A stretch of DNA of 36,476 nt from Bacillota bacterium. Its GTDB lineage: Bacteria > Bacillota > Clostridia > Saccharofermentanales > UBA5734. Position 1 is the stretch's first letter; every line of letters starts with the position of its first letter. This document shows, piece by piece, positions 11,833 to 35,701 of this stretch. Under the pieces are notes generated by a model. That model had not been told where the DNA came from. It ran no database searches and saw nothing but the letters and a program-made list of their open reading frames with translations. A program made the translations under genes and the position numbers. The stretch lies in assembly GCA_029548445.1 (NCBI GenBank), contig JAKPNJ010000306.1:1-36476 (forward strand). Reading direction: 5' to 3'.

Positions 11833-13518
11833 ATGGCGCGGACGGACACCCTGGACGCGGGAAAGGGATGGTCGGGACTCGCAGATGCGGTTCCCCCGGT
11901 TCCGCTCCACCTGGGGCCCCGGGATTTCCGATGGATCGAGTCGCCGGACGGGACGGGGAAAGTCCGCCTGGTGCTGAAGGAGATCGACCGCCAGGGAATC
12001 GCCTATGTGGTGGATTTCCGCTGCGAAAACAGGGACCAGGCCCGGCGCCTCCTGGAAACCGCCGCCGCCGAAGCCCGGGCGGCCGGGGCCCGGACCATCC
12101 GGGCCGGATTCCGCCCCTTCCTCTCCTGCGCCTTCCTTCCCGAGGACCCGCCCCCCGGATGGCATCCCGTCGGTACCTTCCACATGATGGCCCTCCGGCT
12201 CGACGCCTCGCCGCCACCCGCCATCCTGTCGGGCCCTCCCGCAATGCCCGGCCTTGCGTTCCGGTCGTTTCTCGACCATCCCGACCTCTACCCCGAGCTC
12301 CACAACCGCTGTTTCGAGGGCGTCTTCAACGCCGCCCGATGCCTGCCGGGTGAACGCGACGAACTGCTGGCCGGCATCCGGGAGGAACGGGAGGAGGCGG
12401 CCGCGGCCCTGCTGGACGAAGAACCCTGCGGGTTCTACCGCATGTCCCTGCCGGACGGGAACCGGTCGGTCCTCCTGGATTCCCTGGGGGTCCTGCCCGA
12501 GCGTCGGCAGCGGGGCATCGGACGGTGCATTTTGGCGGAATCCCTGCGAAAGGCCCGGGACCGGGGCGCCCGGGTGGTCCGCCTGATGGTGGCCGACCGG
12601 AATACTGGCGCCCTGGCCCTCTACCGCTCCGCCGGTTTCGTGGAGGAAAGGGCCTACTCCCATTATTTTGAACCCGACGGGCCGGAACCCGACCCGACGA
12701 CCGGCGAGCGCCTGGCCATCGCCCGGAACCGGCTTTGTACGGTCTCCTCCCTGGCGGAGGACCTGGCCGCCCTCGGCGTCCGGCCCGGCATGGTCCTGGA
12801 GGTCCATGTCTCCCTGCGGCGCCTGGGCTGGGTCTGTGGCGGGGCGGAAGCCCTCATCCGGGCCCTGCTGGCAGTACTCGGGCCGGAGGGAACCCTGGTG
12901 ATGGCGACCCAGAGCGGCGGAAACTCCGAGCCCTCCCGATGGGTGTCCCCGCCGGTGCCGGAGGCCTGGTGGCCGGAGATCCGGGCCGAAATGCCCCCCT
13001 ATGACCCCGCGACCACCCCGACCCGGGGCGTCGGCGTGGTGGCGGAGTGCTTCCGGTCCTGGCCCGGCGTCCGGAGGAGCCGCCATCCCGCGGCTTCCAT
13101 GGGTGCCCTGGGTCCCGCGGCGGACCGGATCGCCGGATCCCAGCCCCTGTCCTTTCCCCTGGGGGAGGGATCGCCCTGCGCGGCCCTGTATGACCTGGAC
13201 GCCCATGTGCTCCTCCTGGGGGTCCGGTACGACCGCTGTACCTCGTTGCACCTGGCCGAGTACCGGGCCGGGGACCGGCCGACGATCGGACAGGGCGCCG
13301 CCATGACGGTGGACGGCCAACGGACCTGGGTGACCTACCGGGACCTGGACCTGGATTCCGACCGGTTTGCGGAACCCGGCCGACTCCTGGAAGCGGAAGG
13401 CCGCATCGCCATGGGCCGGGTGGGAGCGGCGGAAGCCCGGCTGTTCCGGGTCCGGGACGCCGTGGACCTGGCGGTACGGACCTGGAAAATGGATGACGCG
13501 GAAGGGAAGGCACCATGA
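11833..13518 (+). CDS. fusion: N-terminal GNAT acetyltransferase + C-terminal AAC(3)-family (Antibiotic_NAT) N-acetyltransferase
   Basis: 561 aa; GNAT motif A (LLDSLGVLPERRQRGIGRCILAESL, NTGALALYRSAGF); AAC(3) motifs (HVSLRRLGWVCGGAEALIRALL, PTRGVGVVAECFRSWPGVRRSRHPAASMGALGP, TSLHLAEYRA). Confidence 0.88.
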   Translation: MARTDTLDAGKGWSGLADAVPPVPLHLGPRDFRWIESPDGTGKVRLVLKEIDRQGIAYVVDFRCENRDQARRLLETAAAEARAAGARTIRAGFRPFLSCAFLPEDPPPGWHPVGTFHMMALRLDASPPPAILSGPPAMPGLAFRSFLDHPDLYPELHNRCFEGVFNAARCLPGERDELLAGIREEREEAAAALLDEEPCGFYRMSLPDGNRSVLLDSLGVLPERRQRGIGRCILAESLRKARDRGARVVRLMVADRNTGALALYRSAGFVEERAYSHYFEPDGPEPDPTTGERLAIARNRLCTVSSLAEDLAALGVRPGMVLEVHVSLRRLGWVCGGAEALIRALLAVLGPEGTLVMATQSGGNSEPSRWVSPPVPEAWWPEIRAEMPPYDPATTPTRGVGVVAECFRSWPGVRRSRHPAASMGALGPAADRIAGSQPLSFPLGEGSPCAALYDLDAHVLLLGVRYDRCTSLHLAEYRAGDRPTIGQGAAMTVDGQRTWVTYRDLDLDSDRFAEPGRLLEAEGRIAMGRVGAAEARLFRVRDAVDLAVRTWKMDDAEGKAP

Positions 13519-18293: not shown

Positions 18294-19658
18294 CTATTTG
18301 CCGTCGAAGGCCGAGGCGTCGTAACTGGCCCGGGGATTCCAGCAGATCCATTCCTTGAACCCGGCGTCCTGGATGGCCTTGATCTGGGCCTTGATCTCGG
18401 CGGGCCCGTATTCCATGTAATACCCCTTGGGGAGATAGCTGGCGGTAAAGGCCTGGAGATAGGTCCGCACCGCGGCGTAGCCCTCCTGGCTGGCGGCGGG
18501 CTGGGCCAGCACCAGGCAGTTGTACAGGACTTTGTAGGGTTCCAGGTCCGGGTGCGTGAAGTGGACGCCGTTCAGCATGGTCCCCTTGCCGTTGCCGCTG
18601 TAATGGGTCGTGGAGCTGTTGGCATAATGGGAGGGGTAGATCATGGGGGCCACGTTGTCGATGCCCGTGAGGCCCACCGTGGCCCAGTCCTGCCCGATCC
18701 GCTCCCCGTCGCTCTTGCTGGACACGATGATGGCGAACACGTCGGCGCCCAGGGGAACGCCGAACTGGTCGGTCAGCAGCACCCGGGACTTCTGCAGGAA
18801 GCGGTTGATGACCTCGTACCGGGCGGGCACCCAGTCCGTTTCCCCGAAATAGGGCTTTTCGCCGGTGGTGGTGCCGCCGGTGGGGAAGCGGACATAGTCG
18901 AACTGGATCTCGTCGAAGCCCATTTCGATGGCCTCGATGGCCAGGGCGATGTTGTAATCCCAGACTTCCTGGCGATAGGGGTTCACAAAGGGCTTCTTGC
19001 CCTCGTTCGTGAAGTACAGGCTGTTGCCGGCCTTGTCCCGGATGCACAGGTCGGGACGGGCTTCCGCCAGGATGGGATCCTTGAAGACCACGATCCGGCC
19101 GATCAGGGTGATCCCCTTTTCGCGGCAAATCCGGACGAGATTCTCCACATCATAGGCCGCGCCCTTGTACGCCCCGATCTCCAGGGCCAGCTCGTTTTTC
19201 GTCGGGATATAGACGGCGTTGGATTCCTTGATGTCCACCACCAGCGCGTTGAGCAGCGGCGAGTTTTCGACAATCTCCACGTTCTTCGCCAGGTTGCCGC
19301 AGGCGCCGATGTACAGGGCCCGGGCCTCGTTGCGCTTCGGGGGAACCGGGGAGGCGACCACCGGCAGGGGGCCGAAATAATCGTTTACATCATGGAGATC
19401 CTGGCCGGGATCGGGTGTGGGATACGACCCCGGGAGTTCGATGGGCGTCGGCGTCGCGGTAGGCGGCAGGTCCGTGGGGGTCGCCGACGGTGTGCCGTCC
19501 GTGGGGGAGGCGGGATCGGTGGGCTGTCCGCCTGTCGGGCTGCCCGTGGGACTGCCGGAGGGGGTCGGATTCCCCGGGCTTCCGCAGGACGCAAGCAGCA
19601 GGGCCAGGGCCAGAAGGACCAGGAGAGCCGGGATTCCGGCGCGGCGCGGCAGGGACAT
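18294..19658 (-). CDS. putative glycoside hydrolase lipoprotein (DUF4015/GH13-like)
   Basis: Lipobox LLALALLLASC, PT-rich linker, EARALYIGACGNLAKNVEIVENSPLLNALVVDIKESNA, GFDEIQFDYVRFPTGG. Confidence 0.85.
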   Translation of the reverse strand: MSLPRRAGIPALLVLLALALLLASCGSPGNPTPSGSPTGSPTGGQPTDPASPTDGTPSATPTDLPPTATPTPIELPGSYPTPDPGQDLHDVNDYFGPLPVVASPVPPKRNEARALYIGACGNLAKNVEIVENSPLLNALVVDIKESNAVYIPTKNELALEIGAYKGAAYDVENLVRICREKGITLIGRIVVFKDPILAEARPDLCIRDKAGNSLYFTNEGKKPFVNPYRQEVWDYNIALAIEAIEMGFDEIQFDYVRFPTGGTTTGEKPYFGETDWVPARYEVINRFLQKSRVLLTDQFGVPLGADVFAIIVSSKSDGERIGQDWATVGLTGIDNVAPMIYPSHYANSSTTHYSGNGKGTMLNGVHFTHPDLEPYKVLYNCLVLAQPAASQEGYAAVRTYLQAFTASYLPKGYYMEYGPAEIKAQIKAIQDAGFKEWICWNPRASYDASAFDGK

Positions 19659-19792: not shown

Positions 19793-19877
19793 CAGGTCGG
19801 ATGAATCGACTCGGACCGGCCCGGCCGGGACCGAAGGCCCCCGGTTTGGCCGGGCGGCCTGGGAAAGGGGTGGCTCG

Positions 19878-20291
19878 ATGCTTGTGCGCAACTGTGCCGG
19901 CGGCATCGTCTTCCATGGGGACCGGGTCCTCGTGCTGAAGAACGACAAGGGGGAATGGGTCTTCCCGAAGGGCGTCATCCGGAGCGGCGACTATCCGGAC
20001 GACGTGGCCATCGCCCGGGTCCAGCTGGAGGCGGGAGTCAAGGCCCACATCATCTCCTCCGCCGGCCGGACGAACTACGAATTCTTCTCCGTTTCCCGCT
20101 AACGGCCTGTCTGCAACAAGATCGTGTGGTACATCATGGTGGCGGACAGCGACACCATGACACCGAATCCCGACCAGAACTTCCACGAAGGCGCGTTCAT
20201 GCCGGTGGAGGAAGCCATGGAGAAAGTGACCTACAGCCAGGACAAGTCCCTCCTGATGCTCTCGTACCAGCGGTACAAGGAGCTGTCCTGA
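19878..20291 (+). pseudogene. NUDIX-domain protein gene interrupted by one in-frame TAA (20100-20102)
   Basis: Codons 1-74 MLVRNCAGGIVFHGDRVLVLKNDKGEWVFPKG...NYEFFSVSR, TAA, then same frame RPVCNKIVWYIMVADSDTMTPNPDQNFHEGAFMPVEEAMEKVTYSQDKSLLMLSYQRYKELS, TGA. Confidence 0.75.
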
Positions 20292-21050: not shown

Positions 21051-21785
21051 ATGTCCGGTCATTCCAAATGGGCCAACATCAAGCATCGAAAGTCCAAGTC
21101 CGACGCCCAGAAGGGCCAGGTCTTCACCAAGCTCGGCCGCGAAATCCAGTTGGCCGTCCGCAGCGGGGGCCCCGACCCCGACGTCAATTCCCGGCTCAAG
21201 GACCTGATCGCCAAGGCCAGGGGCTCCAACATGCCCGGAGACAGCATCCAGCGCAGTATCCGGAAGGCGGCAGGCTCCGAGGACAACGAGCAGATCGAGG
21301 AGATCACGTACGAGGGGTACGGGCCGGCAGGGATTGCGCTGATGATCCGGGCCATGACGGACAACCGCAACCGGACCGCCGGGGATGTCCGGCACATGCT
21401 GGACAAATATGGCGGCAACCTGGGTACCACCGGCTGTGTCTCGTTCCTGTTCCATGAGAAGGGCGTGATCCTGGCCAGTCGGGAAGACAGCCCCGGGGAC
21501 GGGGACGAGAGTGCGGCCATGATGGATGCGCTGGAAGCGGGGGCCGAGGATTTCGACGCCTCGGAGGATCTCTTCGAGATCTACACGCCGCCCCAGGATT
21601 TCTATGTCGTACGGGAGGCCCTGGAGAAGAAGGGATACGCCATCGCGGACTCGTCCATCCGGATGGTGCCCATTACCTGGGTCCGGGTGGAGGACCCGGA
21701 GGTCCGGGAGAAGATGGAGAAGATGCTGGAGGTCCTGGAGGAACACGACGACATCCAGGAGGTCTTCCACAACTGGGAGACCTGA
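21051..21785 (+). CDS. yebC: YebC/PmpR-family DNA-binding regulator or translation factor
   Basis: MSGHSKWANIKHRKSKSDAQKGQVFTKLGREI...GYGPAGIALMIRAMTDNRNRT. Confidence 0.96.
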   Translation: MSGHSKWANIKHRKSKSDAQKGQVFTKLGREIQLAVRSGGPDPDVNSRLKDLIAKARGSNMPGDSIQRSIRKAAGSEDNEQIEEITYEGYGPAGIALMIRAMTDNRNRTAGDVRHMLDKYGGNLGTTGCVSFLFHEKGVILASREDSPGDGDESAAMMDALEAGAEDFDASEDLFEIYTPPQDFYVVREALEKKGYAIADSSIRMVPITWVRVEDPEVREKMEKMLEVLEEHDDIQEVFHNWET

Positions 21786-21816
21786 TCGGACAGGGTTCGG
21801 CGCAGGGAGGACGGAA

Positions 21817-23151
21817 ATGGCGGCATTTCGGGGACCGGACCTCCGGGCGGGGATCGAGGCCGTCCTGCGCCGTCTCCGGAACCTGCGGGATTCTTTCCTT
21901 GCATCCGAAAAATCGGACAATCCGCCCGACGATCCCTCGGACGGGACCGGCATCGGCCTGGCGCCGACGGTCGACGCCGGGGGGGCCTTCACGGCCTTTG
22001 TCCCGAGACCTGCCGAGGAGATCGCCAATCCGCCGGGGAATCCCGCGCCGGCTTCTCCACCCCCTTCCGGTTCTTTCCCCGCTCCCCCCGATGCAGGGGA
22101 AACCGCCGGCGACCGGACGGCCGAACCCCGCAGGCCGGTCATCCGGGAAACCCTGGAACGCCTTGCGTCCATCCGGTCCGCTGCCCGGGCCCGGGCCCAG
22201 TCTGCCCGGACCACCGACGAGGCGGAGGGAGACGCCGGGATCCGCGAGGCCCTGGCCCGCATTTCGGTTGTGGCCTTCATCGGGCCCAGCGGGACCGGCA
22301 AGAGCACCCGGGCCCTGGCTGTGGCCCACCGGGAACAGATCCACCACATCATCGACGACGGCCTGCTGATCCATGGCGGCCGCATCGTGGCGGGCCTGTC
22401 CGCCAAGCGGGCGGCTTCCCGGCTGGAATCGGTGCGCCAGGCCCTGTTCGTGGACGACAGCCGGTCCCGGGGCATGCGCCGCTCCCTGGTAGCCGCCGGG
22501 CCGCAGGTCCTGATGGTGCTCGGTACCTCGGACGCCATGGTGGACAAGATCTGCGAGAATCTCTGGCTTCCCGCCCCGGCCCGCCGGATCCGGATCGAGG
22601 AGGTCAGCTCCGAGGACGAAATCCGCATGGCCATGCACACACGGCAGCGGGAAGGAAAGCACACGATCCCGGTGCCCAGCATGGAGATCAAGCATGAATT
22701 CTCGGGATACTTTTCCGATCCGCTGCACCGGCTCCGGGCGCGCAGGGCCCGGGACCGGGGAGGCCCCCTGCCGGCCGAGACGGAGAGGACCGTGGTCCGG
22801 CCGACTTTCTCGGGGCTCGGTCGGTACAGCATTTCCGACGAGGCCATGCGGGACATGACCCGCCTGGTGCTCCGGAAGGTGCGGGGCGTGGCGGACCTGA
22901 CCGGTTTCGAGATCCATCCCCAGGCCTATGGCGTGGACCTGTCGGCGGAACTCTGCCTGTATTACGGGGCCAATGCCCAGCAGGTCCTCCGGGAAGTCCA
23001 GCAGCGCCTGATTCATGACATCGAGGAACTGACGGCCATCAATGTCCTGAGCGTTTCGGTCCGGGCCCGGAAGGTTGTCCACGCCCCGACGGCCCAGGGG
23101 AGTCCTGTCGGATCGTCCGGCCGACCCTCACGTCGGACGGATGCCGGCTGA
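21817..23151 (+). CDS. P-loop ATP-binding protein with C-terminal Asp23/Gls24 domain
   Basis: Walker A GPSGTGKS, HHIIDDGLLIHGGRIVAGLSAKR, IPVPSMEIKHEFSGYFSDPL; C-terminal YSISDEAMRDMTRLVLRKVRGV...LSAELCLYYGANAQQVLREVQQRLIHDIEELTAINVLSVSVRARKV. Confidence 0.8.
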   Translation: MAAFRGPDLRAGIEAVLRRLRNLRDSFLASEKSDNPPDDPSDGTGIGLAPTVDAGGAFTAFVPRPAEEIANPPGNPAPASPPPSGSFPAPPDAGETAGDRTAEPRRPVIRETLERLASIRSAARARAQSARTTDEAEGDAGIREALARISVVAFIGPSGTGKSTRALAVAHREQIHHIIDDGLLIHGGRIVAGLSAKRAASRLESVRQALFVDDSRSRGMRRSLVAAGPQVLMVLGTSDAMVDKICENLWLPAPARRIRIEEVSSEDEIRMAMHTRQREGKHTIPVPSMEIKHEFSGYFSDPLHRLRARRARDRGGPLPAETERTVVRPTFSGLGRYSISDEAMRDMTRLVLRKVRGVADLTGFEIHPQAYGVDLSAELCLYYGANAQQVLREVQQRLIHDIEELTAINVLSVSVRARKVVHAPTAQGSPVGSSGRPSRRTDAG

Positions 23152-24285
23152 CCCGGCCGACGGCGAGAATCGCGCGAGTCCCGCCGGACCCATGGCCCTG
23201 GCCAGGGAGAATCCCCACAATTGGGCCTGCCCCGCATCCTGCCCGAACCATGAGAGGGCCGTTTCCCGAATGGCTTCCAGGCCGCCGGGACCCGGCTCCG
23301 GCACCACATCCGGATACACAATCCGGAAGAGGCGCTCGATCCAGGTATCCACGGGATACACATCGGTCCGGATGCCGGCATACAGCAGGACGCAGTCGGC
23401 CACCTTGTCCCCCACCCCCGGCAGGGCCTTGAGCCGCCGGGCGGCCTCCCCGGGAGACTCGTCCCGCAGGGACGCCGCGAACGCCGCCATGCCGCCCTCG
23501 CCCTGGGCCGCAGCCCAGTCGGCGACGGCGAAGACGGCGGGACAGCGATACCCCCCGAAGGCTTCGGGACACCGGGCTCCCGGCCGGCAGGCGCCGGGCG
23601 GATTCCCGCGGCAGGAGCCAGGGCGGAAGGCCATGAGCCGTTCGGGATCGGGAAAGCCGAACAGGGGGCCCCGGTCCGGTTCCAGCAGGCGGGCCAGGGG
23701 ACTCCGGACCCGTTCTCCGCAGCCGATGCACAGGGCTTCGACCAGGGACCGGATCCGGGGGATGTGGTTCCGGGCCGATAGGATAAAGGAGACCAGGGTC
23801 TCGAACAGGGGCTGGCGGAGCAGCCGGATGCCGCCGCAGGCCAGGACCGCCTCCCGGTGGAAGGCGTCCCGGGCCACCCGCCGCCGGAGGGCTTCTTCCG
23901 GCTCTCCGAGCCGCAGGGTCCGGATCCAGAATGCCGCATCCTCCGGCAGGACTCCTCTCAGGAGCAGGCGGCCTGGCCTGTCGGGCGAGGCCGGGTCCGG
24001 CCCGGGGGGATCGTATGCCAGGTTGGCCAGTCGGGTACCGCAGAGGCCCGTGACGCTGCCGTCCGGCTCCGGACGGAAGCGAAAGGCCTGTCCGCCCATC
24101 AGTGTGCCGACGGGATCCAGTCGTTCCGCGAGGCCGTCCCCGGTGGGATCCGCGATTTCCAGCGACGGCAGGCGCTCTCCCCGGAAGGCCGCGAAGACCT
24201 CCCGGAAGGGGATTCCTGTATAATCAGGGGGAGCCCGGCGGGGCGCCGGTTCGGAAGGAGTGTCGGAATCCATGAAGGAACGCAT
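23128..24285 (-). CDS. 8-oxoguanine DNA glycosylase (OGG/HhH-GPD family); start uncertain
   Basis: HhH LKALPGVGDKVADCVLLYAG...YPVDTWIERLFR; FETLVSFILSARNHIPRI; FGQDAGQAQLWGFSLAR. Confidence 0.85.
   Translation of the reverse strand: MRSFMDSDTPSEPAPRRAPPDYTGIPFREVFAAFRGERLPSLEIADPTGDGLAERLDPVGTLMGGQAFRFRPEPDGSVTGLCGTRLANLAYDPPGPDPASPDRPGRLLLRGVLPEDAAFWIRTLRLGEPEEALRRRVARDAFHREAVLACGGIRLLRQPLFETLVSFILSARNHIPRIRSLVEALCIGCGERVRSPLARLLEPDRGPLFGFPDPERLMAFRPGSCRGNPPGACRPGARCPEAFGGYRCPAVFAVADWAAAQGEGGMAAFAASLRDESPGEAARRLKALPGVGDKVADCVLLYAGIRTDVYPVDTWIERLFRIVYPDVVPEPGPGGLEAIRETALSWFGQDAGQAQLWGFSLARAMGPAGLARFSPSAGSAGIRPT
24219..24224 (+). promoter_or_regulatory. -10 element TATAAT upstream of the DUF6062-like gene
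   Basis: TATAAT about 48 bp before ATG 24272. Confidence 0.4.
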
Positions 24286-25009
24286 TTACACCATCCCTGT
24301 CAATGACGCGTTTGCGGCGGCCGGCGAATGTCCCCTCTGCTCCCTGGAGGACCGGTTGTCCGAGGACCTCGTGGGCTATTTCCTCGGTCCGTCGCTGATG
24401 GAGCCCGATGTCCGGACCACGACCAACGCCCGGGGTTTTTGCCGGGACCACCTGGCCCGGCTCTACAACCGGCAGGAGAACCGGCTGGGCCTGGGCCTCA
24501 TGCTGCATACCCACCTGGCGGACCTGGACCGGGACATCCTCGACCGGATGAAGCGGTTGGGCGGGGTTGCCGGCGGCCTGTTCCGGCGGAAGGAGGCCAC
24601 GGACCCCCTGCGGAAGCTGGCCGCCCATCTCGAGGAACGCCGGAACGCCTGCGCCCTGTGCGACCGGATCAACGCCACCATGGACCGGTATGTGGACGTG
24701 ATCCTCTGGCAGTATTTCAACGAGCGGGAGTTCCGGGCCCGGTTCGACGCCTGCGAGGGATTCTGTCTTCGCCACCTGTCCCTGCTGCTGTCGGGAGCGT
24801 CCCGGTACCTGGACGCCCGGCAGGCCGGCGAAATGGCGGAAGCCCTCCGGCGGATCCAGGAGGCCTGCCTGTCCCGCCTGGAAGCGGATGTGGAATGGTT
24901 CACCCTGAAATTCGACTACAAAAACCATGACAAGCCCTGGGGCAACTCCCGGGACGCCCTGCCCAGGGCCATCCGGCGCCTTCACGGGACATCGGACCTC
25001 CAGCGCTGA
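24272..25009 (+). CDS. DUF6062-like Cys-rich protein (duplicated CxxC ... CxxH)
   Basis: MKERIYTIPVNDAFAAAGECPLCSLEDRL...GFCRDHL...NACALCDRIN...GFCLRHLSLLL; ggaaggag RBS. Confidence 0.8.
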   Translation: MKERIYTIPVNDAFAAAGECPLCSLEDRLSEDLVGYFLGPSLMEPDVRTTTNARGFCRDHLARLYNRQENRLGLGLMLHTHLADLDRDILDRMKRLGGVAGGLFRRKEATDPLRKLAAHLEERRNACALCDRINATMDRYVDVILWQYFNEREFRARFDACEGFCLRHLSLLLSGASRYLDARQAGEMAEALRRIQEACLSRLEADVEWFTLKFDYKNHDKPWGNSRDALPRAIRRLHGTSDLQR

Positions 25010-33277: not shown

Positions 33278-33322
33278 GTCGTGTCGCATCTCCTTGCCTG
33301 GCGCCAGGAAAGGAGCGTCCCG

Positions 33323-33868
33323 ATGGCTCGACTGTCCGACATGATCGAGACCGTGATCAAGGAAATGCTGGACCGGAACGACGGGCTGCTGGATACGACC
33401 CGCAGCGCCCTGGCGGACCGGTTCAACTGCGCTCCTTCCCAAATCACGTATGTCCTGTCGACCCGCTTCGGCCAGGATCACGGGTATGTCATCGAATCCC
33501 GGCGCGGCGGCGGCGGCTGGATCCGCATCCAGCGAATGCGGATGGAAGGACCGTCCGACTACCTGGTCCATGCCTTTTTCTCCCTGGGGGACGCCCTGTC
33601 CCAGGAGCAGGCCATGGTCCATATCCAGAATTTTGTCGACCACGGGGCTGCAAGCCCCGACCAGGCCGTCGTGATGCGGTCCGCCGTGTCCGACCGGTCC
33701 CTGGCCCGGGTGAATCCGCCCTGGCGGGACGCCCTGCGGGCCGACATCCTGAAGAACCTGCTGGCCGGCCTGATCCGCTGTCGGAGCCAGCAGCCGGGCG
33801 CCTGCCCGAATCCGGCACCGCCGGAGGCCGGACGTGCAACGCGGGGGGGGGATCCCCATGATCTGTGA
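33323..33868 (+). CDS. ctsR: transcriptional repressor CtsR
   Basis: MARLSDMIETVIKEMLDRNDG...RSALADRFNCAPSQITYVLSTRFGQDHGYVIESRRGGGGWIRI; aaggag RBS. Confidence 0.95.
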   Translation: MARLSDMIETVIKEMLDRNDGLLDTTRSALADRFNCAPSQITYVLSTRFGQDHGYVIESRRGGGGWIRIQRMRMEGPSDYLVHAFFSLGDALSQEQAMVHIQNFVDHGAASPDQAVVMRSAVSDRSLARVNPPWRDALRADILKNLLAGLIRCRSQQPGACPNPAPPEAGRATRGGDPHDL

Positions 33869-34595
33869 CCAGTGCCACAAGCGGGATGCGACAATCCATG
33901 TGACCCAGGCCGTCAATGGCGAGACCCAGGAGATGAACCTGTGCGCCGGATGCGCCATGCGTCTGGGATTTGTGTCGGCCGGCGGGGACCTGTCGGCCCT
34001 GCCGTTCCTGGAGGGCCTCTCGTTCCCCGCCGGCCTGTTCAAGGTGTCCCTGGGATCCCCTGTCAAGGGCGGGACGGCGGTTGGCGAGCGCTGCATCCAC
34101 TGCGGCCTGACCTTCGACGAGTTCCGAAGCGGGGGCCGGATGGGATGCGGCCGCTGCTACGCGGCCTTCGCCCATCGTCTCCTGCCCCTGATGAAGCGAA
34201 TCCAGTCCGGGGACCGGCACACGGGCCTCCGGCCCACCGGTGCCACCGCCAGGGTCATGGAGCAGGACGCCGCCCGGGAAGCCCGGGAGGCCCGGGAGGC
34301 CGCCGCCAGGGAATCCCGCCCCGAGGCCCCGCCGACGGTCAAAAGCCGGCCCAGGGTTCGGCCAGGGCCGCCAGCCGGACCCCCGCAAGCGGGATCGGCG
34401 GACGCGGCACCGGAGAGCGCCGGCCCCGCGGAACCCGGTGTTCCGGAACTTCGGGAAGAACTCCGGAAGGCCGTGGACCGGGAGGACTATGAATCCGCCG
34501 CCCGCCTGCGGGACCGGATCCGGGCCCTGTCGGAACCGGCTGACACTCCCGGGGAGAAGGATCGGGAAGAGAAGAAGGGAGGCCAGGCTCCATGA
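33858..34595 (+). CDS. mcsA: McsA, CtsR/McsB modulator with four CxxC motifs and UVR motif
   Basis: CDQC, CAGC, CIHC, CGRC; C-terminal ELREELRKAVDREDYESAARLRDRIRAL. Confidence 0.92.
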   Translation: MICDQCHKRDATIHVTQAVNGETQEMNLCAGCAMRLGFVSAGGDLSALPFLEGLSFPAGLFKVSLGSPVKGGTAVGERCIHCGLTFDEFRSGGRMGCGRCYAAFAHRLLPLMKRIQSGDRHTGLRPTGATARVMEQDAAREAREAREAAARESRPEAPPTVKSRPRVRPGPPAGPPQAGSADAAPESAGPAEPGVPELREELRKAVDREDYESAARLRDRIRALSEPADTPGEKDREEKKGGQAP

Positions 34596-35701
34596 CCGCA
34601 CGGGATACGGATGTCGTCATCAGCAGCCGGGCCCGCCTGGCCCGCAACCTGGCCGAGTTCGCCTTCCCCGGCCGCCAGGATCCCGTGTCCGCCGGCAAGG
34701 TGGCCGACCGGGTCCGGGAGGCCCTGTTCGCGGGGAGCGACCACATGGCCCGGGCCTTCCGCCGCATGGCCATCGCCGACCTGCCGCCCCTGGACCGGTC
34801 CGCCCTGGTGGAGCGGCGCCTGATCAGCCGCGACCTGGCCCAGGACGGGCCCGGCCGGGAAGTCCTGGTCAGCCGGGACGAGCACCTGTCCATCATGGTC
34901 AACGAGGAGGACCATGTCCGGATCCAGGCCATCACACCGGGGTTCAGCGTGGACGAAGCCTTCGACCTGGCCCTCCGGACCGTCCGCTACCTGGAGGAGA
35001 ACCTGGCCTTCGCCTACCACGAGCGGTTCGGGTACCTGACAGCCTGTCCCACCAATGTGGGCACCGGGCTACGGGTCTCGGTCATGGTCCACCTGCCCGG
35101 CCATGTGCTGGGAGGCGCCATCGAGCCGCTGGTGGACAGTCTCCGGAAACTCCGGTTCGCGGTCCGGGGCATGTACGGCGAGCACAGCGAAGCCGGCGGC
35201 GCCCTGTACCAGGTCTCCAACCAGGCCACCCTGGGCCTGTCCGAGGACGAAATCCGCACCGAGCTCCGGCGGGTAGCCGCCTCGGTGGTGGAGCGGGAGC
35301 GGACCTTGCGGCGGGAACTCCACCGGGTCCAGCCCCTGGCCCTGGAGGACCGGGTGGGCCGTTCCCTGGGCATCCTGCGGAACGCCCGGCTGCTGACCGC
35401 CGAGGAGGCCCTCCAGCGCCTGTCGGACCTTCGGCTGGGCGTGGCCCTGGGCCTGTGTCCCGACCTGGACGCGGGAACCGTGGACGACCTGGTGAACCGG
35501 ATCGGCCCCGCCAGCCTGCAGAAGGCGCGGAACCGGGACCTGCCGCCCCAGGAACGGGACGCCGTCCGGGCCGAGGAGATCCGGACCCGGCTGGCCTCCG
35601 GGGGCGCAGCGCCTCCCATGACCCCCACCGCCCCGACGCCTGCCGACCCGACGCCACCCGGCCCCGGGACTCCGCCGGATCCCGGCCCATCCGCACCCTG
35701 A
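34592..35701 (+). CDS. mcsB: protein-arginine kinase McsB
   Basis: VVISSRARLARNLAEFAFPG, LVSRDEHLSIMVNEEDHVRIQ, LTACPTNVGTGLRVSVMVHLP. Confidence 0.96.
   Translation: MTARDTDVVISSRARLARNLAEFAFPGRQDPVSAGKVADRVREALFAGSDHMARAFRRMAIADLPPLDRSALVERRLISRDLAQDGPGREVLVSRDEHLSIMVNEEDHVRIQAITPGFSVDEAFDLALRTVRYLEENLAFAYHERFGYLTACPTNVGTGLRVSVMVHLPGHVLGGAIEPLVDSLRKLRFAVRGMYGEHSEAGGALYQVSNQATLGLSEDEIRTELRRVAASVVERERTLRRELHRVQPLALEDRVGRSLGILRNARLLTAEEALQRLSDLRLGVALGLCPDLDAGTVDDLVNRIGPASLQKARNRDLPPQERDAVRAEEIRTRLASGGAAPPMTPTAPTPADPTPPGPGTPPDPGPSAP

Follow-up and report, generated by a model that had tools for sequence, protein, structure and literature searches.

The window, a stretch of 36,476 nucleotides, encodes a 444-residue protein in which a kinase-like P-loop domain is fused to an Asp23 domain. 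As judged from alignments, this fusion is widespread and its ATP site is under strong purifying selection. To our knowledge, few unexplained proteins are as common in Gram-positive bacteria as those of the Asp23 family, and a widespread, normally single-copy member combining an ATP site with an invariant linker offers a biochemical handle on the action of the Asp23 domain. We tentatively favour the view that the protein is soluble and acts as an ATP-dependent kinase or switch, which its Asp23 domain would dock to Asp23-type partners and whose target would belong to envelope or lipid homeostasis.

Architecture and distribution of the fusion protein

The features of the gene, its product and its immediate neighbours are collected in Table 1. 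All motifs quoted in the original prediction were found in the translation: the Walker A and IIDDGLLI motifs are placed in Table 1, AGLSAKR occupies residues 192-198 and IPVPSMEIKHEFSGYFSDPL residues 284-303.

Table 1. Coordinates in the window of the fusion gene, the parts of its product and the adjoining genes
Feature	Position	Strand	Evidence
yebC, directly upstream of the fusion gene (31-bp gap)	21051..21785	+	NCBIfam/Pfam match
Shine-Dalgarno-like AGGGAGG, 6 nt 5' of the ATG	21804..21810	+	read directly in the sequence
P-loop-Asp23 fusion gene, 444 aa	21817..23151	+	translation; start ATG at 21817 and stop codon ending at 23151 read directly; homologues in 56/58 relatives; full-length in 108/250 phylum genomes
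N-terminal extension, residues 1-139, Pro-rich, unconserved	21817..22233	+	homologue matches begin at about residue 75-140; missing from alignments
P-loop kinase-like core, residues 145-265	22249..22611	+	AlphaFold2 block-mean pLDDT 84-97; Foldseek matches
Walker A GPSGTGKST, residues 156-164	22282..22308	+	G156, G159, G161, K162, S163 invariant 45/45
IIDDGLLI motif, residues 178-185	22348..22371	+	D180, D181, G182 invariant (alignment); strand placement (model)
Linker R..GKHxIPVPxxExKxxFSG...VVRPxFSxxG, residues 276-335	22642..22821	+	R276, H282, P285, V327, P329, G335 invariant
Asp23 domain, residues 333-425	22813..23091	+	PF03780; alpha-beta-beta-alpha-beta model fold; Foldseek match to MamM
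OGG-like DNA glycosylase, convergent with the fusion gene (24-bp overlap)	23128..24285	-	TIGR00588, E 1e-22
DUF6062 gene	24260..25009	+	PF19538, E 7e-82

The homologues in sampled relatives of the same family and order are normally present in one copy, and their full-length matches display 46-66% identity. Across the phylum, every full-length match is a fusion (E <= 2.6e-43), and the next-best matches in the same 250 genomes are ordinary Asp23-only proteins (E >= 1.7e-8). This clean gap separates the fusion homologues sharply from Asp23-only proteins and indicates that both halves travel together and that the observation is no chance finding. The predicted union of a P-loop with an Asp23 domain is thus real, with a Walker A motif in one half and a PF03780 match in the other.

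Among 45 aligned family sequences, sharing 27-69% identity with the window protein, the residues that never change include, besides those listed in Table 1, A166, L184, S195, K197, A209, F211, S238, M241, L249 and A272. The P-loop residues and the Asp-Asp pair are invariant again in a separate alignment of 44 sequences. Since Lys162, Ser163, Asp180, Asp181, Ser195, Lys197 and His282 never vary among the 45 members, the ATP site is under selection.

A contig scan with the single sequence as query returned no match, and an alignment-based scan returned 570 related stretches. The named contigs carrying the fusion are mostly clostridial metagenome assemblies of the Saccharofermentans/Mageeibacillus type. 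A search of a plasmid collection gave one homologue, from Monoglobus, whose RefSeq entry (WP_158648977.1) has the same architecture and bears the name 'Asp23/Gls24 family envelope stress response protein'. This homologue was matched by tblastn with a distant family member as query at 95% query coverage and 42% identity. Database names thus mask a second, nucleotide-binding half in about two fifths of the sampled phylum. In the open-access literature searched, neither a publication on the P-loop-Asp23 architecture nor a published function for it was found; the work on Asp23 proteins found there deals with YqhY, YloU and Asp23. The protein, proposed as undescribed, can therefore be called so as to its function, but it is already catalogued in RefSeq under an Asp23 name.

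The disordered Pro-rich N-terminus that had been predicted is indeed rich in proline in the window protein, with 18 Pro in residues 30-110, but it is no feature of the family. Most members begin just ahead of the P-loop, and typical distant members count about 270-320 residues. The N-terminus was rejected as a functional module because the region is unconserved among homologues. No transmembrane segment was found in the fusion protein, the maximal 19-residue hydropathy being 1.39, and it lacks the N-terminal transmembrane helices of AmaP-type proteins.

The broadly clostridial distribution, together with some distant loci in which the fusion lies beside ymdB/RNase Y genes (read by eye), would suit a sporulation-related ATPase. 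Yet a Spo0A scan of the 250 genomes shows no association, the fusion being equally present in genomes with a Spo0A match (95/219) and in those without (13/31; Fisher p = 1.0). The sporulation link is therefore rejected as largely refuted, and we consider it very improbable.

A kinase-like P-loop domain outside characterised families

Modelled alone with AlphaFold2, the P-loop domain has a core of some 120 residues predicted with confidence, in which the Walker A motif (GxxxxGK[ST]) lies on a strand-loop-helix modelled at high confidence and the Asp-Asp of IIDDGLLI closes the second strand. A fold search with Foldseek brought matches to FtsY, adenylate kinase 5 and gluconate, APS and thymidylate kinases, with TM-scores all of about 0.41 or less and a similarity restricted to the P-loop core. 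In a profile-profile comparison with five families, whose sequences came from sampled relatives, the best and nearly equal scores went to adenylate kinase, MiaA and shikimate kinase and the worst to HprK and PEPCK, only the region from the P-loop to the second strand being convincing. Because the fold matches are that modest and the profile similarity is so limited, the domain is kinase-like at the level of class and belongs to no characterised family. The original prediction, which would have fallen had the region matched a known enzyme family, holds on this point.

Searches against curated models agree in detail. No score of the adenylate, shikimate or gluconate kinase families exceeds its curated cut-off, the core alone being aligned (14.4 bits against 262 for the NCBIfam adenylate kinase model). 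Upstream of the Asp23 domain, Pfam gives generic P-loop matches only, all sub-threshold, such as ABC_tran (16.8 bits against 25) and AAA (16.3 against 21.2). The ABC signature LSGGQ is absent from the sequence, NCBIfam holds no specific model for the fusion protein, and PDB sequence searches returned generic P-loop matches only.

With adenylate, shikimate, gluconate and APS kinases, the domain shares the Walker A motif, the strand-loop-helix core and the Asp-Asp that closes the second strand, whereas the fusion has a beta-hairpin after the Asp-Asp and a linker without counterpart in these small kinases. HPr kinase and PEP carboxykinase also display a Walker A motif followed by a DD motif and a hairpin. 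Kinship with them, prompted by the DD-hairpin-GxSAK pattern, was rejected: their profile scores are the lowest, 16-32 columns align, no joint alignment of P-loop, DD and GG(C)YAK was obtained, and the GxxAK likeness is superficial.

The dependence on a nucleotide that had been proposed is well supported by the invariant Walker A and Asp-Asp residues, which argue for a genuine ATP site.

The linker, the Asp23 domain and a candidate mechanism

The linker is almost invariant in the family, yet it has low pLDDT in both AlphaFold2 models. The model of residues 100-425 shows two well-modelled domains joined by this poorly modelled linker, with a mean pLDDT of 74.7 and a pTM of 0.46. Both models rest on shallow alignments of 43-44 sequences (43 for residues 100-425).

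Of the two halves, the Asp23 domain diverges more, and few of its residues are invariant across the phylum. On the full protein, PF03780 matches residues 377-420 with 26.6 bits, just below its 28-bit cut-off; on the domain fragment, it reaches 28.3 bits, and it matches 45/45 family members (best E 2e-14). The AmaP profile matches 33/45 members, presumably via AmaP's own Asp23 part. The best PDB match of the domain by Foldseek is the C-terminal domain of MamM, a cation-diffusion protein, with a TM-score of about 0.8 on the target. In MamM and other CDF proteins, this C-terminal domain is a dimerisation domain.

The Asp23 domain is common to the fusion and to Asp23, YqhY, YloU, AmaP and Gls24 (PF03780/DUF322). 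The fusion differs from these proteins in having a P-loop domain at its N-terminus, an invariant linker unique to it and no transmembrane helix, and its gene lies outside an accBC, yloV or efp-type setting. The same genome encodes, on another contig (C300), an ordinary Asp23 protein beside a second Asp23 protein with hydrophobic N-terminal segments, AmaP-like.

Where Asp23 proteins have been characterised, their action concerns lipid synthesis or envelope stress: acetyl-CoA carboxylase is held in check by YqhY (PMC5437119), and Asp23 of S. aureus is envelope-linked according to work cited in PMC6459899. By analogy, mainly with YqhY, the fusion would have its target in envelope or lipid processes. 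The envelope role that had been predicted for the protein is only inferred, from its Asp23 label.

According to the mechanism that we propose, the N-terminal small-kinase-type P-loop domain would bind ATP, while the C-terminal Asp23 domain would dimerise or dock. ATP binding, probably with phosphoryl transfer or hydrolysis via Lys162/Ser163 and Asp180-Asp181, would alter the conformation of the linker, which would act as a switch and change how the Asp23 domain pairs. Through this domain, the enzyme might then reach ordinary Asp23-type proteins on the inner membrane face and there modify or regulate a target involved in envelope or lipid homeostasis. ATP-dependent docking is favoured because the P-loop and Asp-Asp are invariant, the fold matches are kinase-like and the Asp23 domain is found in 45/45 members, and also because that domain is MamM/CDF-like, the AmaP profile matches most members and the genome holds two other Asp23 proteins. 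Its envelope or lipid part is favoured because YqhY and S. aureus Asp23 act there. The proposal is weakened by the lack of a recurrent envelope or lipid neighbour and of a transmembrane segment, by the divergence of the Asp23 half, by the confinement of the kinase match to the P-loop core and by the low confidence with which the coupling linker is modelled.

The same kinase-type fold matches and the resemblance to a dimerising MamM domain would also suit a cytosolic small-molecule or protein kinase without envelope role, in which the Asp23 domain serves for dimerisation only, as in CDF proteins; the missing transmembrane segment and the lack of envelope neighbours across the phylum point the same way. 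However, the Asp23 domain is kept in every member found, which a replaceable dimerisation module would not need, and known Asp23 proteins cluster in envelope and lipid functions. We regard this reading as rather unlikely. Somewhat more doubtfully than the mechanism proposed above, the fusion may represent the first branch of the Asp23 family to be enzymatic, in the form of an ATP-driven kinase or switch controlling Asp23-type scaffolds or their lipid-synthesis targets. Such a branch would span a large part of the clostridia-type Bacillota and work by a hitherto undescribed phosphorylation or ATP-gated mechanism.

Gene neighbourhoods of the fusion

No partner gene recurring phylum-wide was found around the fusion loci, nor any recurrent envelope or lipid gene. 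Adjacency to yebC, pointed out from the sequence, is true of the window and of all 78 loci of the order with enough DNA, in which yebC lies directly 5' of the fusion, but of none of 40 loci elsewhere. Co-transcription of both genes is probable within the order, and a partnership with YebC as a general family feature was rejected.

DUF6062 is the gene that follows the fusion in the order, downstream of it in 66/67 loci; in the window the DNA-glycosylase gene intervenes. With the window's proteins as queries, the 40 loci outside the order gave no match to yebC or DUF6062 at the corresponding positions. A separate DUF6062 profile search found the gene adjoining the fusion, convergently, in three distant-family genomes (L172 7618-8379, L278 and L279). 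DUF6062 as an obligate partner was rejected, as only 9/29 genomes with DUF6062 hold the fusion (p = 0.17). The DUF6062 protein carries paired CxxC and GFCxxH motifs.

The constant position of yebC in the order would fit a translation or RNA factor, in which the Asp23 domain would bind RNA in the manner of a KH domain and the P-loop domain would be MiaA-like. YebC helps ribosomes across proline stretches, according to PMC12234827 and PMC11990639. The IPT profile weakly matches 20/45 members (best E 6e-6), and Foldseek weakly matches the KH-domain GTPase Era. Against this stand the absence of yebC beside the fusion outside the order, the Era match itself (TM-score 0.2, rmsd 20) and the MiaA similarity, which spans about 100 columns and then ends. 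No full-length MiaA/IPT match including the transferase region was obtained (PF01715, PF01745): the stretch from the P-loop through the second strand is similar, with IISADS..Y...DIGTAK in MiaA/IPT against IIDDGLLI...GxSAK in the fusion, but a real MiaA is encoded elsewhere in the same genome. A role in translation thus has a slim chance, slightly below that of the genome-maintenance or redox role considered hereafter.

On contig C300, the Asp23 and AmaP-like genes are preceded by an EF-P-like gene and followed by a nusB-like gene, both read by eye. With the EF-P-like gene and yebC as neighbours, both Asp23 loci of the genome would adjoin a proline-stretch translation factor.

Besides the window, close relatives, Monoglobus and family f69 have an OGG-like glycosylase gene adjoining the fusion, and it may or may not belong to one unit with the fusion gene. 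The orientation of the pair in Monoglobus and family f69 differs from that in the window. In Monoglobus (NZ_OY725741.1, L282 4352-6687), rex, the fusion and a DNA glycosylase gene are lined up, overlapping or separated by short gaps, the fusion lying between rex and the glycosylase and not after yebC; this row is possibly a redox-stress operon.

A role in genome maintenance or redox stress, as an ATP switch working with OGG-like glycosylase, Rex or DnaD/DnaC-type neighbours, would account for these pairings, for rex directly upstream in Monoglobus and near the fusion in locus L151, and for about eight distant loci in which the fusion lies beside dnaD/dnaC-like genes (identities read by eye). 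However, most genomes with both genes have the glycosylase elsewhere, the neighbours were noticed after the fact and the dnaD arrangement is usually divergent, so that this reading is improbable.

Other genes of the window were recorded in passing. A DUF4015 putative glycosyl hydrolase is encoded at 18294-19658 (-), and its family also adjoins the fusion in the distant loci L153, L154, L158 and L163. A Nudix-like ORF at 19875-20290 (+), MLVRNCAGGIVFHG..., is broken by an in-frame stop at about 20100-20102 and is intact in relatives; it is either a decaying gene or an assembly error. At 11833-13518 (+), a GNAT acetyltransferase is fused to an aminoglycoside 3-N-acetyltransferase-type domain (PF02522). 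Finally, ctsR, a gene for a UVR-motif protein and one for an ATP:guanido phosphotransferase stand in a row at 33281-35701 (+) and match the ctsR-mcsA-mcsB stress operon.
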